Below are positions 1 to 7,299 of a stretch of 64,000 nt of DNA, in pieces. Under the pieces are notes generated by a model. It searched no databases. It had not been told where the DNA came from and saw only the letters and a list, made by a program, of their open reading frames with translations. The stretch comes from Agromyces sp. G08B096 (GTDB lineage Bacteria; Actinomycetota; Actinomycetes; Actinomycetales; Microbacteriaceae): NCBI RefSeq assembly GCF_040267705.1, contig NZ_CP158374.1, forward strand, positions 682,001 to 746,000, read 5' to 3'. Positions within the stretch are counted from its first letter, which is position 1. Every line of letters starts with the position of its first letter. A program made the translations under genes and the position numbers.

Positions 1-1
1 C

Positions 2-745
2 GTGAAGGCCGCCCACCCGGAGATGATCGCGTTCGCCGTGCCCGGCGACGCCGAATTCGGCGTGTACCCCTGGGTCTGGGGCGCCGGCGGCGAGGTGTCG
101 GTCGAAGAGGACGGCGAGTGGGTCTCGGGACTCGACAGCGCCGAGTCGCAGGAGGGCATCGGCTTCTACACCGGCCTCGCCACGGAGTACGGCTTCTCGT
201 CGGCCGGCGCGACGACGTGGAAGGAGACCGACGTCCTCGACAACTTCGTGCAGGGCAACGTCGCCATGGCACTCATGGGCTCGTGGACCCCGGCCACCAT
301 CATCGAGAAGAACGCCGACCTCGAGGGCAAGTTCGCCGCGACGCCGATCCCCGGCAAGGACGGCGGCATCTCGCCGTCGGTGCTCGGCGGCTCGCACCTG
401 TCGATGTTCGAGACGGCCGAGAACAAGGACCTCGCCTGGGCCTTCATCAAGCTCATGACCACCGGCGAGTTCGCTGAGGCGTGGGCCGAGCAGACCGGCT
501 ACTTCCCCGGCCAGACGTCGCTGCTCGAGCAGACGCTCGAGTCCGACGACCCGCTGGTGACGCCCTTCGCGACGCAGATGGTCGACGGCGGGGCATCCGT
601 GCCCGTGACGCCGAAGTTCGGCGCTGTGCAGGCGAAGAAGACCACCAACACGGCCATCCAGGCCATCCTCTCCGGGCAGAAGACGGTCGAGCAGGCCACG
701 GCCGACGCCGCCGCGGAGATGAACCAGATCATGAACGGCGACTGA
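2..745 (+). CDS. Sugar ABC transporter substrate-binding protein, C-terminal part
   Basis: This is the C-terminal 247 residues of a family 1 extracellular solute-binding protein; the gene begins before the window, so signal peptide and lipobox are not visible. The segment has the usual second-lobe features of maltose/GlcNAc-type binders: an FVQGNVAMALMGSW stretch near residues 80-95 and a final KKTTNTAIQAILSG helix followed by AAAEMNQIMNGD. It would capture a sugar outside the membrane for the two permeases that start 5 bases downstream. No ATPase is encoded here, so a shared MsiK-type ATPase probably powers it. The downstream NagZ-AnmK-MurQ genes suggest a peptidoglycan-derived amino sugar as ligand; that part is inference. 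Confidence 0.9.
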   Translation: MKAAHPEMIAFAVPGDAEFGVYPWVWGAGGEVSVEEDGEWVSGLDSAESQEGIGFYTGLATEYGFSSAGATTWKETDVLDNFVQGNVAMALMGSWTPATIIEKNADLEGKFAATPIPGKDGGISPSVLGGSHLSMFETAENKDLAWAFIKLMTTGEFAEAWAEQTGYFPGQTSLLEQTLESDDPLVTPFATQMVDGGASVPVTPKFGAVQAKKTTNTAIQAILSGQKTVEQATADAAAEMNQIMNGD

Positions 746-750
746 CCGAC

Positions 751-1722
751 GTGACCAGCACCATCCAGGCGCCGCCGGTCGCGCAGGGGGCACCCTCCCC
801 TCGCGCGGCCGGCGGCGCCGGCCGCCGCCGGAGCCCCATCGCCCGGCTCCGGCCCTGGCTCCTGCTCGCCCCCGCGCTCGCGGTGCTCGCCGTGCTCCTG
901 CTCTGGCCGCTCGTGCGCGTGGTCCTCTTCTCCCTCCAGGACTACGGCCTGCGCGAGATCGTCTCGGGCGAACCGAACTGGATCGGCCTCGCGAACTACG
1001 CCGAGGTCTTCACCGACCCCACGCTCTGGAGCGTGGTGCTGCCGAACACGTTCGGCTTCGCGATCCTCGCCGTCGCGGCGACGGTCGCGCTCGGCACCGG
1101 CGTCGCGGTGCTCATGGCTTCGCTCGGCCCGTTCTGGCGCACCGTCGTCGGCAGCGCGATCATGGTGGCCTGGGCGATGCCCGCGGTCACCGGCACCTAC
1201 GTCTGGGTCTGGATCTTCGACGCCGATCGCGGCATCTTCAACCAGACGCTGCAGGCACTCGGCCTGCAGGACGAACCCGTGAACTGGTTCACGAACCGGT
1301 GGAGCTTCTACGCCATCGTGCTGCTGAACGTCGTCCACCACGGCTTCCCGTTCGTCGCGGTCACCGTGCTCGCGGGCCTCCTCGGCGTGCCGAAGGAGAT
1401 GCTCGAGGCCGCTGAGATGGACGGCGCCGGCCCCTGGCGCCGGTTCTTCAAGGTCATCGTGCCGAACCTCCGCCAGGTGTTCTCGGTCGTGATCATCCTG
1501 TCCACCATCTGGGACTTCAAGGTGTTCGCGCAGGTGTACCTCATGCCGGGCGGTGCCGGCTCCAACCGCGAGGCGCTGAACCTCGGCGTCTGGAGTTACG
1601 TCGAGTCGTTCGGTCAGAACCGCTACGGCTTCGGCTCCGCCATCGCGGTGCTGCTCACGCTGCTCCTGCTCGTGATCACGGTCGTCTACGTCCGCACGAT
1701 GCTGAAGGAGGAGGAGCTGTGA
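751..1722 (+). CDS. Sugar ABC transporter permease, MalF/UgpA type
   Basis: This is an inner-membrane permease of the CUT1 sugar importer class, 323 residues. A Pro/Arg-rich cytoplasmic N-terminus is followed by a first membrane span near residues 37-60, and the EAA loop that docks the ATPase (EAAEMDGAGPWRRFFKVIVP) lies near residues 219-238. The GTG start at 751 is 5 bases after the stop of the binding-protein gene and begins the first plausible hydrophilic N-terminus; the frame stays open further upstream but only as a shadow of the previous gene. It pairs with the permease that overlaps its stop codon. Confidence 0.92.
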   Translation: MTSTIQAPPVAQGAPSPRAAGGAGRRRSPIARLRPWLLLAPALAVLAVLLLWPLVRVVLFSLQDYGLREIVSGEPNWIGLANYAEVFTDPTLWSVVLPNTFGFAILAVAATVALGTGVAVLMASLGPFWRTVVGSAIMVAWAMPAVTGTYVWVWIFDADRGIFNQTLQALGLQDEPVNWFTNRWSFYAIVLLNVVHHGFPFVAVTVLAGLLGVPKEMLEAAEMDGAGPWRRFFKVIVPNLRQVFSVVIILSTIWDFKVFAQVYLMPGGAGSNREALNLGVWSYVESFGQNRYGFGSAIAVLLTLLLLVITVVYVRTMLKEEEL

Positions 1723-2588
1723 CCGCCGAGCTCACCCGCGAGATCCCGCGCACCCGGCGCACCGGCCGCAAGGCGCGCGCGGCCGCCGGCAAGGCCGTGC
1801 TCGTCGTGGTCCTCCTCGCCTTCACGCTGTTCCCGGCGTTCTGGATGCTCTCGAGCGCGTTCGACGCCCAGGCGGGCGCGGGCGGGCAGACCCTGCTGCC
1901 CCGCGAGTGGTCCCTGGAGAACTTCGCGTACGTGCTCACCGAGGGCGGGTTCGACGTGTTCCTCCGGAACTCGGCCCTCGTCGCGCTCGTGACGGTCTTC
2001 GCGAGCGCCGTCCTGGCGCTCCTCGCCTCGGTCGCCGTGGCCCGGTTCCGGTTCCGGTTCCGCACGGCGATGCTGCTCATGATCCTCATCGTGCAGATGG
2101 TGCCGCTCGAGGCGCTCGTCATCCCGCTGTTCGTCCAGGTCCGCGACCTGCAGCTGCTGAACACGCTGCTCGGCCTCATGGTCGTCTACGTCGCCCTGTC
2201 GCTGCCGTTCGGCATCTGGATGCTGCGCGGCTTCGTCGCGGCCGTGCCGGTCGAGCTCGAGGAGGCCGCGTACATCGACGGCGCGAGCTGGGGGCGGATG
2301 TTCCGTTCCGTGCTGCTGCCGCTCGTGATGCCGGGCCTCGTGGCGACGAGCGTGTTCAGCTTCATCACCGCGTGGAACGAGTTCATCTTCGCCATGACGC
2401 TCCTCGGCGGAGCGACGGAGAACTACACGGTCGCCATCGGCCTGAAGCAGTTCTTCGGCGAGCACTCGAACGAGTGGGGCTACATCATGGCCGCGTCGAC
2501 GATCATCACGGTGCCCGTCATGATCTTCTTCGTCATCGTGCAGCGCCGCCTGTCGAGCGGGCTCGTCGCCGGTGCGGTGAAGGGGTAG
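1719..2588 (+). CDS. Sugar ABC transporter permease, MalG/UgpE type
   Basis: This second CUT1 permease has 289 residues. Its GTG start shares four bases (GTGA) with the stop of the previous gene, with GGAGGAG just upstream, so the pair is translationally coupled. Six hydrophobic spans are visible, and the EAA loop (EEAAYIDGASWGRMFRSVLL) lies near residues 180-199. The C-terminus is short, ending in GLVAGAVKG. With the neighbouring permease it should form the membrane channel of the importer; only 2 bases separate it from nagZ, which puts import and intracellular hydrolysis in one transcript. Confidence 0.93.
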   Translation: MTAELTREIPRTRRTGRKARAAAGKAVLVVVLLAFTLFPAFWMLSSAFDAQAGAGGQTLLPREWSLENFAYVLTEGGFDVFLRNSALVALVTVFASAVLALLASVAVARFRFRFRTAMLLMILIVQMVPLEALVIPLFVQVRDLQLLNTLLGLMVVYVALSLPFGIWMLRGFVAAVPVELEEAAYIDGASWGRMFRSVLLPLVMPGLVATSVFSFITAWNEFIFAMTLLGGATENYTVAIGLKQFFGEHSNEWGYIMAASTIITVPVMIFFVIVQRRLSSGLVAGAVKG

Positions 2589-2590
2589 GG

Positions 2591-4129
2591 ATGCCGCGCC
2601 GCGACGACCCCGCGCTGCGGGAGCTGGTGAACGCCGTCATCTGGCCGGGGTTCCTCGGCCGGCGGGTGCCCGACTGGCTGCGGCGCGAGCTCGACGCCGG
2701 GCTCGCGGGCGCCGTGCTGTTCGCCCAGAACCTGGGCGACCGGGCCGAACGACGAGCGCTCGCCGCAGCCCTGCACGCCGGACGCGACGACGTGCTCGTC
2801 GGCATCGACGAGGAGGGCGGCAACGTCACGCGGCTCGAGGCGAGGTCGGGCTCGACGCTGCCCGGCGCGTGGCAGCTCGGCTTTATCGACGAGGCGGCCG
2901 CGACCGAGGCCGTCGGCCGCGAGCTCGCCCGGCGCTCGCTCGCCGTCGGGGCGAACGTGGTGCTCGGACCCGTGGCCGATGTGAACGTCGACCCGGCGAA
3001 CCCGGTGATCGGGGTGCGCAGCTTCGGCGACGAGCCCGAGCTGGTCTCGCGGCACGTCGCGGCGACGGTGCGTGGCATCCAGAGCGCCGGCGCGGCGGCC
3101 TGCGTCAAGCACTTCCCGGGTCACGGCGACACCCACGTCGACTCCCACCACGCGCTGCCGGAGCTCAGGATGCCCCTCGCCGAGCTCGAGCGGGTGCACC
3201 TGCCGCCCTTCGAGGCGGCGATCGCCGCGGGGGTGCGCGCCGTCATGACCGGGCATCTCGTGCTGCCGGAGTGGGGGGAGCTCCCCGCGACGTTGAACCC
3301 GGTGGCGCTCGGGCGGCTCCGCGCGCTCGGCTTCGAGGGCGCGATCGTCACCGACGCGCTCGACATGGCGGCCGTCCGGGCGACGGTCGGCGCGGGGCGC
3401 GGGGCGGTGCTCGCGGTGCAGGCCGGTGCCGATCTGCTGTGCATCGGGAACCCGGCGAACCCCGGCGCCCACGCGGCGCCCGACCAGGACGCGCTCGACT
3501 TCGCCGAGGTGCAGTCCGCGCTGCTCGACGCGATCGCGAGCGGCGAGCTCGAGGTCTCGGTGCTCGAGCGCGCCGCCGCGCGGGTGCGGGCGCTCGCCGC
3601 CGGGACGGGGTCCGGCGGGACCGGCGCCGGCACCGACGTCGACGCCCGGAGGACGGCCGCCAGCGGGTCGGGTTCGGCCGCTGCGGCGCCCGACGACGTC
3701 GACGCGGCATCCCTCGTGCGCCGGGCGATCTCCGTGCACGGCGATCTGCCCGAGGTGTCCGGCGCGGCCGTCGTCCTCGACGTGCGCCGGCGGCCGACGC
3801 TGGCCGTCGACAGCGGCGCCGACTACGTGGCGGCGGCGCTGAGCGGCGGAGGGACGGTCCGACGGATCGAGCCCGAGGAGGGCGAAGCCGGTGAGGTCGC
3901 CGCGGCCGTCGCGGCGGGCGGACCCGTCGTCGTCCTCGCCGACGCGTTCGAGACGTCGCCTGGGCAGCGGTCGGTCGTCGACGCGGTCCGCGATGCGGCC
4001 GTGCCGGCGGTGCTCGTGCACGTCGGCGTGCCGCTCGCCGAACCGCCGGCACTGCCGCTCGTCGAGACGCGGGCGGCGAGCCGTGTGGCGGCCGAAGCCG
4101 CGGGCGCCGTGCTCCGGGGAACCTTCTGA
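2591..4129 (+). CDS. nagZ: Glycoside hydrolase family 3, NagZ-type beta-N-acetylhexosaminidase
   Basis: This enzyme should remove GlcNAc from GlcNAc-(anhydro)MurNAc compounds. The GH3 N-domain carries GIDEEGGNVTRLE near residue 75 and the NagZ signature KHFPGHGDTHVDSHHALP near residues 173-190, which holds the mobile-loop Asp/His general acid pair. No signal peptide is seen, so it acts in the cytoplasm, unlike the secreted Bacillus NagZ. At 512 residues it is longer than the roughly 340-residue Gram-negative form: after a Gly/Ser/Ala-rich linker near residues 337-375 comes a second alpha/beta domain of about 130 residues resembling GH3-C. The ATG at 2591 sits 2 bases after the permease stop; the long upstream open frame is an overlap artefact. 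Confidence 0.93.
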   Translation: MPRRDDPALRELVNAVIWPGFLGRRVPDWLRRELDAGLAGAVLFAQNLGDRAERRALAAALHAGRDDVLVGIDEEGGNVTRLEARSGSTLPGAWQLGFIDEAAATEAVGRELARRSLAVGANVVLGPVADVNVDPANPVIGVRSFGDEPELVSRHVAATVRGIQSAGAAACVKHFPGHGDTHVDSHHALPELRMPLAELERVHLPPFEAAIAAGVRAVMTGHLVLPEWGELPATLNPVALGRLRALGFEGAIVTDALDMAAVRATVGAGRGAVLAVQAGADLLCIGNPANPGAHAAPDQDALDFAEVQSALLDAIASGELEVSVLERAAARVRALAAGTGSGGTGAGTDVDARRTAASGSGSAAAAPDDVDAASLVRRAISVHGDLPEVSGAAVVLDVRRRPTLAVDSGADYVAAALSGGGTVRRIEPEEGEAGEVAAAVAAGGPVVVLADAFETSPGQRSVVDAVRDAAVPAVLVHVGVPLAEPPALPLVETRAASRVAAEAAGAVLRGTF

Positions 4130-5394
4130 TGAGGATCGTCTCGCTGCAGTCCGGCACGTCGGCCGACGGCATCGACGTCGCCGTCGTCGACGTCGGCGCC
4201 GTCGATATGCGGCCTGGCGAGCCGGGGGCCGCATCCGCCGACGACGCCGCCGACGCCGCCGTTCGGCTCGACCCGGTGCTGCTGCGCACCGTGCCGTGGG
4301 CGGCCGCGCTCCGGCGGGAGCTCCTCGACGCGGCGCTCGGCGCCCGTCTCGACGCGGGCGACTGGTGCCGGCTCGACACCCGGCTCGGGCAGGCGTTCGC
4401 CGCAGCCGCCGAGGAGGCGATCGCCGAGTCCGGCGGCCACGCCGACCTGATCGTCTCGCACGGACAGACCGCGCACCACTGGGTCGAGGACGGCCATGCC
4501 CGGGGCACGCTGCAGCTCGGCGAACCGGCGTGGATCGCCGAGCGCACCGGCGCGCCCGTGCTCTCGCACCTCCGCGCCGCCGACATCGCCGCCGGCGGCG
4601 AAGGCGCCCCGCTCATGGCGGTGTTCGACCGCCTCTGGCTGATCGGCGAAGCGCGTCGCATCGGACGCCCGCTCGCGACCGTCAATCTCGGCGGCATCGC
4701 GAACGTGCAGGTCGTCGCGCCAGACGGCGGCGTGCTCGCGTTCGACAGCGGTCCGGGCAACGCCCTGCTCGACGAGGCCGTCGCTCGCGCCACGGAAGGC
4801 GCCGAGGCCTACGACCGTGACGGACGCCGGGCCGCGTCGGGCCGTGTGCACGGGACGCTCCTCGCGGAGCTCCGGGCGCACCCGTACTTCGCGGCTGCGA
4901 CGCCGAAGACGACCGGGCGCGAGACCTTCCATCTCGGCGTGGTCGATGCCGCGGCCGATCGAGCCGGCGCGCGCGACCTGCCGCTCGACGACCTCGCGGC
5001 GACGCTCGCTGAGCTGACGGCGCTCGCGGTGGCGGAGGCGCTCGACGGCACCGGCGCGGCCGAGCTCGTCGTCTCGGGCGGCGGGGCGCTGAATCCGGCG
5101 CTCCTGGCCCGGCTCGCCGATCACGCCGGGCGGCGGGGCATCCGCGTCGTCTCGAGCGCCGAACGCGGCCTCGATCCCGCGTTCAAGGAGTCGCTCATGT
5201 TCGGGCTCCTCGGCTACCTGTCGTGGCACCGGGTGCCGGTGCGCGTCGCGGGGCCCGCGTCCCGGATCGCCGGACGCATCACCCCGGGGCCGGCATCGTT
5301 CGCGTTGCCGGAGCCGCTCGGTGGCGTGGCATCCGTCGTCGTCGGCGCTGGTGCCGCGGACGACGGGGCCGCGGGTGGAGGGGGAGCAGCATGA
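4129..5394 (+). CDS. anmK: Anhydro-N-acetylmuramic acid kinase
   Basis: AnmK opens the 1,6-anhydro ring of anhMurNAc with ATP to give MurNAc-6-phosphate. The N-terminal MRIVSLQSGTSADGIDVAVV is the family phosphate-binding start, SHGQTAHHW follows near residue 107, LGGIANVQV lies near residue 186 and TPKTTGRETFHLG near residue 257. The ATG shares one base with the nagZ stop (TGATG). At 421 residues it is longer than the usual about 370, because of an Ala/Gly/Asp-rich insertion near residues 26-45 and a Gly/Ala-rich tail. Its product is the substrate of MurQ, encoded next. Confidence 0.95.
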   Translation: MRIVSLQSGTSADGIDVAVVDVGAVDMRPGEPGAASADDAADAAVRLDPVLLRTVPWAAALRRELLDAALGARLDAGDWCRLDTRLGQAFAAAAEEAIAESGGHADLIVSHGQTAHHWVEDGHARGTLQLGEPAWIAERTGAPVLSHLRAADIAAGGEGAPLMAVFDRLWLIGEARRIGRPLATVNLGGIANVQVVAPDGGVLAFDSGPGNALLDEAVARATEGAEAYDRDGRRAASGRVHGTLLAELRAHPYFAAATPKTTGRETFHLGVVDAAADRAGARDLPLDDLAATLAELTALAVAEALDGTGAAELVVSGGGALNPALLARLADHAGRRGIRVVSSAERGLDPAFKESLMFGLLGYLSWHRVPVRVAGPASRIAGRITPGPASFALPEPLGGVASVVVGAGAADDGAAGGGGAA

Positions 5395-6422
5395 CCACGA
5401 CCGAGCCCGGCGGGGCCGACGGGGCGGGGAGGACCCGGGACGGGTGGGCCGAGGCGGCCGGCGAGACCGGCGCCGCCTCCCGCGAGGCGCTCCGCGACGT
5501 GCTCGCAGAGCTCGCGACCGAAGCGGTCGACGACCGTCTCGCCGACTTCGACCTCCGCTCCACCGAGGCGCAGGTCGCGACGATGATCGAGGAGTCCGCG
5601 GTCGCCGTCTCCGCGGTGGAGGCTGCGGGACCGCAGATCGCCGCGGCCGTCGACGCCGTCGTCGCGCGGCTCCGGGCGGGCGGTCGCCTGATCTACACCG
5701 GTGCCGGGACCGCGGGACGGCTCGGCGTCCTCGACGCCAGCGAGATCCCGCCGACGTTCGGCACCGACCCGGCGCTCGTCGTCGGCGTCATCGCGGGTGG
5801 GGAGGCGGCGCTCCGGAACGCCGTCGAGAACGCCGAGGACGATCCAGAGCTCGGCGCCGCCGACCTCGCGGCGATCGGGGTGGGGCCGGGTGACGCGGTC
5901 GTCGGCATCTCGGCGTCCGGGCGGACACCCTACGTCGTCGGTGCGCTCCGGCACGCCGCCTCCGCCGGGGCGCTCACGGTGGCGCTGGCCGGCAATCGCG
6001 GCTCGGCGATCGGCGCGGTCGCCGACCTCGCGGTCGAGGTCGAAGTGGGCCCGGAGGTCGTCGCCGGCTCGACCCGGCTGAAGGCGGGCACCGCCCAGAA
6101 GCTCGTGCTGAACGCGATCTCGACCATCGCGATGGTGCGTCTCGGCAAGGTCCACGGCAACCTCATGGTCGAGGTGCAGGCGACGAACGACAAGCTCAGG
6201 GCGCGCGCCGAGCGGATCGTCATGCTGGCGACCGGCGTCGATGCCGAAGCCGCGGCCGCCGCGCTCGCCGCGACGGACGGGAGCGTCAAGGCCGCGATCC
6301 TCGTGACCCTGACGGGGGTCGCGCCGCACCTCGCCCGGGCGGCCCTGGAGCGCGAAGATGGGGTGCTGCGCGATGCGATCCGCCGCGTCCAGACCGATCC
6401 GGAGGAGCCCGATGTCCCCTGA
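5391..6422 (+). CDS. murQ: N-acetylmuramic acid 6-phosphate etherase
   Basis: MurQ cleaves the D-lactyl ether of MurNAc-6-phosphate, giving GlcNAc-6-phosphate and D-lactate in the cytoplasm. The SIS domain holds IYTGAGTAGRLGVLDASEIP near residues 102-121, GISASGRTPYVVGAL near residue 171 and the signature STRLKAGTAQKLVLNAISTI near residues 226-245. The ATG at 5391 overlaps the anmK stop as ATGA and follows GGGGGAG; the about 45 extra N-terminal residues against E. coli MurQ are Gly/Ala/Glu-rich. The end overlaps the regulator gene by 11 bases. Confidence 0.96.
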   Translation: MTTTEPGGADGAGRTRDGWAEAAGETGAASREALRDVLAELATEAVDDRLADFDLRSTEAQVATMIEESAVAVSAVEAAGPQIAAAVDAVVARLRAGGRLIYTGAGTAGRLGVLDASEIPPTFGTDPALVVGVIAGGEAALRNAVENAEDDPELGAADLAAIGVGPGDAVVGISASGRTPYVVGALRHAASAGALTVALAGNRGSAIGAVADLAVEVEVGPEVVAGSTRLKAGTAQKLVLNAISTIAMVRLGKVHGNLMVEVQATNDKLRARAERIVMLATGVDAEAAAAALAATDGSVKAAILVTLTGVAPHLARAALEREDGVLRDAIRRVQTDPEEPDVP

Positions 6423-7299
6423 CGTGCTGTCCGGAGTCCGGCAGGCGCTGCCCAGGCTGAGCTCGTCCGAGGCGCGGGTCGCCGAGGCCATCATCGACGA
6501 CCCGTCGCTCGTGGTCGACCTCACCATCACCGATCTCGCGCGCCGCTGCGGCACGTCGCTGTCGACCGTGGCGCGGTTCTGCCAGACCCTCGGCTACACG
6601 GGGTACCGCGAGTTCCGCATGGCCGTCGCGAGCGCGGTGAGCCGCGAGCAGGCCGAGCGCGACCGGTTCGGCCTCGCGGAGTCCGACATCAGCCCCGACG
6701 ACGCCGCGACGGAGGTGATCGCCAAGATCGCGTTCCAGGAGACGCTCGCGATCGAGCAGACGGCTCAGGGCCTCGACGCGACCGCGCTCGACCGGGTGGC
6801 CGACGCGATCGCCTCCGCCCGGCACGTCGACCTCTACGGCTTCGGCGCGTCCGGCCTCACCGCGCAGGACCTCCAGCAGAAGCTCGCGCGCATCGGCGTC
6901 TCCGCCGCGTGCTCGGTCGACATCCACCTCGCGCTGGTGTCTGCGGCGCTCCGCGCGCCGGGCGACGTGGCGATCGCGGTCTCCCACACCGGAGAGACGA
7001 CCGAGACGCTCGATGCGCTGCAGGTCGCGCGGGGTGCGGGCGCGTTCACGGTCGCCGTCACGAACTCGCCCGAGTCGCCGATCGCGGAGGCGGCCGACGT
7101 GGTGCTCGCCACGCACGCGCGCGAGTCGAGCTACCGCATGGGTGCCATGTCGAGCCGCATCGCCCAGCTCGCGCTCGTCGACTTCCTGTTCGTGCGGGTC
7201 GCCCAGCGCCGGCACGACGAGATGTCGGTGCCGCTCCGCCGTACGCGCGAGGTCACGGCCACCCACCGGGTCGGCGGGCGCCGGCGGCACGCCGGCTGA
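6412..7299 (+). CDS. murR: MurR/RpiR-family transcriptional regulator
   Basis: This 295-residue regulator has an N-terminal RpiR helix-turn-helix (LARRCGTSLSTVARFCQTLGY near residues 43-63) and a C-terminal SIS domain from about residue 130, with DLYGFGASGLTAQDLQQKL and AVSHTGETTETLDAL. SIS domains of this family bind phosphosugars; MurR of E. coli senses MurNAc-6-phosphate. The ATG at 6412 lies 5 bases after GGAGGAG, inside the 3' end of murQ. As last gene of the salvage operon it probably controls that operon from a site upstream of the window. Confidence 0.92.
   Translation: MSPDVLSGVRQALPRLSSSEARVAEAIIDDPSLVVDLTITDLARRCGTSLSTVARFCQTLGYTGYREFRMAVASAVSREQAERDRFGLAESDISPDDAATEVIAKIAFQETLAIEQTAQGLDATALDRVADAIASARHVDLYGFGASGLTAQDLQQKLARIGVSAACSVDIHLALVSAALRAPGDVAIAVSHTGETTETLDALQVARGAGAFTVAVTNSPESPIAEAADVVLATHARESSYRMGAMSSRIAQLALVDFLFVRVAQRRHDEMSVPLRRTREVTATHRVGGRRRHAG

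Follow-up and report, generated by a model that had tools for sequence, protein, structure and literature searches.

The window analysed here, 64,000 nucleotides of the closed 3.59 Mb genome of the soil actinobacterium Agromyces sp. G08B096 (G000:C1:682001-746000), has its left edge inside an operon that joins an ATP-binding cassette (ABC) sugar importer to enzymes for the amino sugars of peptidoglycan. The genes lie on one strand in the order sbp-permease-permease-nagZ-anmK-murQ-murR and either overlap or are separated by 2 to 5 bases, and a divergent kinase gene upstream completes the cluster (Table 1). An earlier note on this DNA had named the families of the seven genes and described their tight junctions; Pfam and NCBIfam confirmed the former, and the coordinates of the open reading frames (ORFs) bore out the latter. 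Extending the sequence upstream, as that note had advised, recovered the start of the solute-binding protein (SBP) gene 551 bases to the left of the window, and the whole gene (G000:C1:681450-682745) encodes a lipoprotein of 431 amino acids. With an SBP_bac_1 lipoprotein and two BPD_transp_1 permeases, the importer is of the CUT1 type, and permease 1 is linked to the SBP in all ortholog loci long enough to show linkage. The identical gene run is found again across genera of three families and is thus not a product of chance.

Table 1. Genes of the operon and the adjoining kinase, in window positions except where a genome position is given.
Feature	Position	Strand	Evidence or remark
CUT1 solute-binding lipoprotein, 3' part	1..745	+	Pfam SBP_bac_1 E 2.3e-48; lipobox LSAC
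ABC permease 1 (BPD_transp_1)	751..1722, GTG start	+	Pfam PF00528 E 3.5e-16
ABC permease 2 (BPD_transp_1, MalG-like)	1719..2588	+	Pfam PF00528 E 3.9e-20; 4-base overlap with permease 1
NagZ-type GH3 beta-N-acetylglucosaminidase, without signal peptide	2591..4129	+	Pfam GH3 E 7.5e-59; 2-base gap after permease 2
AnmK, anhydro-N-acetylmuramic acid kinase	4129..5394	+	Pfam PF03702 E 4.2e-85, above cut-off
MurQ, N-acetylmuramic acid 6-phosphate etherase	5391..6422	+	TIGR00274 322.5 bits, cut-off 302
MurR/RpiR-family regulator (HTH_6 + SIS), probable local repressor	6412..7299	+	both Pfam domains above cut-off
BadF/NAGK-type kinase	G000:C1:680368-681363	divergent from sbp, immediately upstream	part of cluster

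The family assignments differ in how narrowly they can be drawn. NagZ combines the GH3 N domain with the KHFPGHGxTxxDSH signature, here as KHFPGHGDTHVDSH with its His and Asp invariant, and its nearest solved structure is the GH3 N-acetylglucosamine (GlcNAc) hydrolase 6k5j. It scores below the NCBIfam beta-N-acetylhexosaminidase equivalog cut-off (PRK05337; 156.8 versus 207 bits), and we take it to be NagZ-type by motif and fold, outside that narrow model. As the earlier note had claimed, it carries no export signal: the protein begins straight at the catalytic domain, and the aligned orthologs do likewise. AnmK, the only one in the genome, scores 286.5 bits against a PF03702 cut-off of 24 and has the FDxGPxN motif with an invariant Asp. 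The regulator scores 140.8 bits against the NCBIfam MurR equivalog PRK15482, below its cut-off of 408, and is an RpiR-family protein in MurR's place, at most a possible ortholog of Escherichia coli MurR.

We addressed the linkage of importer and enzymes by scanning 84,980 species genomes with the SBP, which gave 156 relatives, and kept the best 80. Only loci reaching 6.5 kb or more downstream were counted, own and survey loci included and duplicates removed, leaving 77; linkage was scored by tblastn, since some ORFs called simply by GC position were wrong. At these loci nagZ was linked in 73, murR in 67, murQ in 34, anmK in 28, and the kinase in 28. The earlier note would have given up its reading had homologous importers never been linked to anmK or murQ; such a link is present in 35 of the 77 loci. 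In the comparison of gene order that it had suggested, the run recurs across genera; in Microbacterium most loci retain just sbp-perm-perm-nagZ-murR, usually beside an Opp-type importer. In three of three complete genomes tested with this reduced locus AnmK is encoded elsewhere, and in Oerskovia and Cellulosimicrobium the importer stands alone at the SBP locus with nagZ beside anmK at another place. The operon thus comes apart and is re-formed while the functional set is retained. Two AnmK frames (G200:C1:3747122-3748233 and G212:C1:1164972-1166176) and the NagZ frame in L084 are apparently split in two, which could reflect frameshifts, sequencing errors, or decay.

Co-occurrence points the same way as linkage. 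In the family, 11 of 200 genomes have an SBP ortholog, a group sharply set apart (at least 68% identity, with the next best at 35%), and all 11 encode AnmK, versus 20 of the 200 overall. Of 60 genomes in the genus, 26 encode AnmK, 22 have the SBP, and 20 have both, with AnmK in 6 of the 38 without the SBP (Fisher 9e-9, uncorrected for phylogeny). The two genomes with the SBP and without AnmK are broken assemblies of 330 and 810 contigs whose SBPs lie on small contigs. AnmK lies no more than about 6 kb downstream on the SBP's contig in 19 of the 22 genomes, the other three SBPs being on very short contigs, and it is also present in all eight further genomes tested, even where unlinked.

The upstream extension yielded a candidate for the MurR operator that the earlier note had proposed to look for. 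A two-part element precedes sbp, TGGAAAATCCTTGCA and GAATACTACTTCCA in the source genome with starts 32 bases apart, and it is found again in other genera, where this 32-base register is often kept. For the right part, the match to its consensus has at most three mismatches in 68 of 91 upstream regions and in 0.2% of shuffles, a comparison that is somewhat generous since the consensus was derived from the same 91 regions. The element shares bases with plausible -35 and -10 boxes, and in Agromyces sp. G08B096 its left part runs into the start of the divergent kinase gene; we infer that MurR binds there. In the whole genome the exact half-site has a single occurrence. We also considered a wider MurR regulon; matches with two mismatches were no commoner than with a reversed control, so no further targets are claimed.

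The operon's products call for two partners, one of them adjacent. Since NagZ releases free GlcNAc, the divergent kinase fills a real gap. The protein is a BadF/BadG-type ATPase related to GlcNAc and N-acetylmuramic acid (MurNAc) kinases. On its own it matches GlcNAc kinases weakly, and it scores 57 bits against the NCBIfam NagK equivalog, whose cut-off is 370; with a seven-member profile, its best solved match is the MurNAc/GlcNAc kinase 8zo3 (E 1e-24). Sequence identity was too low for a confident placement of the positions S133-P134-L135 that bear on MurK function (PMC10465942). A Stealth-family protein with regions CR1-CR4, a putative sugar-phosphate transferase, adjoins the kinase to the left of the window (L002:6585-8297). 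The operon encodes no ABC ATPase. Three OB_MalK-type ATPases lie elsewhere in the genome, and one of the MsiK/UgpC type, an orphan at C1:1034289, may power the importer. The earlier note held the route to be complete as far as GlcNAc-6-phosphate; it had overlooked both the kinase for NagZ's GlcNAc and the missing ATPase. NagA and candidates for NagB are also present in the genome, as is MltG, an enzyme that makes 1,6-anhydro ends. A paralogous CUT1 operon, ROK regulator-SBP2-perm-perm-NagZ2-NagB, occupies 962.9-970.8 kb (L141:2895-10787; G000:C1:962895-970787) and probably serves chitobiose or GlcNAc oligosaccharides. Similar operons occur in G148 (L150) and G085 (L149).

An AlphaFold 2 (AF2) model of the SBP (predicted local distance difference test, pLDDT, 82) has CUT1 SBPs as its nearest solved folds, many of them for beta-linked oligosaccharides. 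It aligned with 5ci5 at Z 42.3 (3.4 Å over 383) and with the beta-glycoside binder 7c64 at Z 41.8 (2.3 Å over 383), and the ligand would not be readable from such similarity alone. At two positions the orthologs of the window SBP are invariantly His (His83 and His316; Val and Asn in SBP2), and they carry Thr49 and Gly211 in place of the Asp and Glu of SBP2. Such differences are what a more anionic ligand would lead one to expect, if the aligned positions line the pocket. No partner is more constant than nagZ, whose product is cytoplasmic by sequence, and therefore a GlcNAc-containing compound must enter the cell, while AnmK and MurQ in the operon argue that the other half of that compound is (anhydro)MurNAc.

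We therefore consider it likely that the operon imports and degrades a peptide-free peptidoglycan disaccharide, most likely GlcNAc-beta-1,4-(1,6-anhydro)MurNAc. The lipoprotein would capture the disaccharide and the two permeases would import it, powered by the shared MsiK/UgpC-type ATPase. Cytoplasmic NagZ would cleave it to GlcNAc and anhydroMurNAc (anhMurNAc). The divergent NAGK/MurK-like kinase would convert GlcNAc to GlcNAc-6-phosphate, plain MurNAc being another possible substrate. AnmK would yield MurNAc-6-phosphate, which MurQ would convert to GlcNAc-6-phosphate and D-lactate, and NagA and NagB would feed wall synthesis or glycolysis. At the two half-sites over the sbp promoter MurR would repress the operon, with MurNAc-6-phosphate as its probable signal. 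The earlier note had already proposed an ABC importer dedicated to these sugars. Linkage, co-occurrence, the AnmK phylogeny described below, and the conserved promoter/operator lend strong support to the importer's tie to muro-sugar catabolism, whereas the choice of ligand is one that we infer.

Several observations weigh against this reading. No anmK or murQ is linked at 42 of the 77 SBP loci, neutral beta-glucosides are the ligands of the nearest solved SBPs, and the compared SBP residues are assigned to the pocket by alignment. In two genomes (g2) the importer accompanies anmK-murQ-murR but the locus has no nagZ; there the ligand could be a monosaccharide. The operon might have the same role with anhMurNAc, MurNAc, or a non-anhydro disaccharide as its cargo and with NagZ or the kinase on side jobs; plain MurNAc would be handled by a MurK-like kinase, and NgcE of Streptomyces coelicolor binds MurNAc with a dissociation constant of 25 μM (PMC6167110). 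We regard this as unlikely, though the most credible departure from the anhydro disaccharide: the constancy of nagZ, without an export signal, speaks against a monosaccharide, and the linkage of AnmK argues for the anhydro form.

A chitobiose or GlcNAc-oligosaccharide importer, with NagZ as chitobiase and the muramic genes merely gathered alongside, would suit the many Microbacterium loci that hold only nagZ and murR, and NagZ enzymes are able to split chitobiose. The Frigoribacterium and M. halotolerans loci, which also carry GH20 and NagB, are compatible with GlcNAc oligosaccharides as well. The role is already fitted by the other CUT1-NagZ-NagB operon under its ROK regulator, the regulator here is of the RpiR/MurR type, AnmK is kept in SBP-bearing genomes even when unlinked (except in the two broken assemblies), and positions acidic in SBP2 are neutral in the window SBP while others are His; these points make this explanation improbable. 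At L117 and L121, a GH20 hexosaminidase with no obvious signal peptide was observed with NagB, a kinase, the CUT1 importer, NagZ, and an FAD-linked oxidase related to D-lactate dehydrogenase. The AnmK-like kinase could also act on another anhydrosugar such as levoglucosan, in an operon for plant or pyrolysis sugars, and in a PDB search levoglucosan kinase nearly equals AnmK (159 versus 164 bits). MurQ, NagZ, and MurR share the operon and NCBIfam AnmK models give up to 408 bits, though under their cut-offs; genomic context thus favours AnmK as the probable identity, and we rejected the levoglucosan route, which is barely credible, on that context.

The CUT1 importer does not seem to be the only solution, as anmK-murQ clusters without an SBP of the window type carry Opp-type ABC (SBP_bac_5), MFS, or SSF transporters. 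Importer type tracks the AnmK phylogeny (5 changes versus a shuffled mean of 15.3), and 27 of 29 CUT1-linked AnmKs group together, with a weakly supported basal split. These data suggest that importers have been swapped around a constant enzyme core. In the Opp-type clusters (L040, L041, L042, L046, L142, L146, and L147) the importer is often accompanied by a beta-lactamase-fold protein and a candidate epimerase of the enolase superfamily (MR_MLE), and in some cases by an FAD/Fe-S protein resembling D-lactate dehydrogenase; these clusters possibly recycle muropeptides rather than the disaccharide. An MFS permease lies near anmK-murQ in four loci (L038, L039, L044, and L045), and the L043 cluster has an SSF sodium symporter, a kinase, and NagB.

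We found no description of this operon, or of a CUT1 importer linked to anmK/murQ, in the open-licence literature, and an earlier description elsewhere is possible. On balance we lean slightly towards a reading in which this is the first importer of the CUT1 type, powered by MsiK, to be dedicated to the peptidoglycan disaccharide GlcNAc-1,6-anhydroMurNAc. In that reading it extends over Microbacteriaceae, Promicromonosporaceae, and Micrococcaceae and is one of four or more interchangeable importers (CUT1, Opp-type, MFS, SSF) on actinobacterial anmK-murQ clusters. MurNAc is recycled in S. coelicolor although MurP is absent (PMC5061867), and a recent mycobacterial study leaves room for further importers of wall fragments (PMC12617635). 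The locus is a concrete candidate for an actinobacterial wall-sugar importer with the whole catabolic route in one operon, and its presence in culturable Agromyces, Leifsonia, and Microbacterium makes the question experimentally accessible.

The enzymes and the logic are known, and in the literature that could be searched the CUT1 importer in a muro-sugar role is undescribed, with near precedents. In Bacillus subtilis murQRP-amiE-nagZ and E. coli murQP/murR, MurQ and MurR (in B. subtilis also NagZ) are likewise clustered and the end product is GlcNAc-6-phosphate, but MurP of the phosphotransferase system (PTS) phosphorylates during import, B. subtilis NagZ is secreted, and the clusters lack AnmK (PMC5061867). 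S. coelicolor SCO4305-4308 is an actinobacterial cluster of MurQ and MurR with demonstrated MurNAc-6-phosphate turnover; it lacks MurP, no importer has been identified for it, and its two remaining genes have no known function (PMC5061867). DasABC-MsiK and NgcEFG-MsiK resemble the window importer as sugar ABC importers on a shared MsiK ATPase, with a beta-linked GlcNAc disaccharide as cargo, but they take up chitobiose or GlcNAc and a link to AnmK/MurQ is not described (PMC6167110). The earlier note had given AmpG and MurP as the well-known uptake routes, and this list was too short: YejBEF-YepA is proven (PMC9790009) and UspABC is proposed (PMC4929945). UspABC of Mycobacterium tuberculosis is also an actinobacterial sugar ABC importer, proposed for recycling of peptidoglycan amino sugars; compared by description only, it is reported to bind amino sugars weakly (mM), and the parts of that account available to us describe no nagZ/anmK/murQ operon link (PMC4929945). 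YejBEF-YepA of Agrobacterium, a proven ABC muropeptide importer that has a binding protein of its own, similarly takes the place of AmpG and supplies recycling enzymes in the cytoplasm (PMC9790009). It is of the peptide (Yej/Opp) kind, whereas the window SBP belongs to SBP_bac_1/SBP_bac_8 and not to the peptide-type SBP_bac_5, and the window operon is an actinobacterial CUT1 system without its own ATPase that holds the catabolic genes in the same operon.

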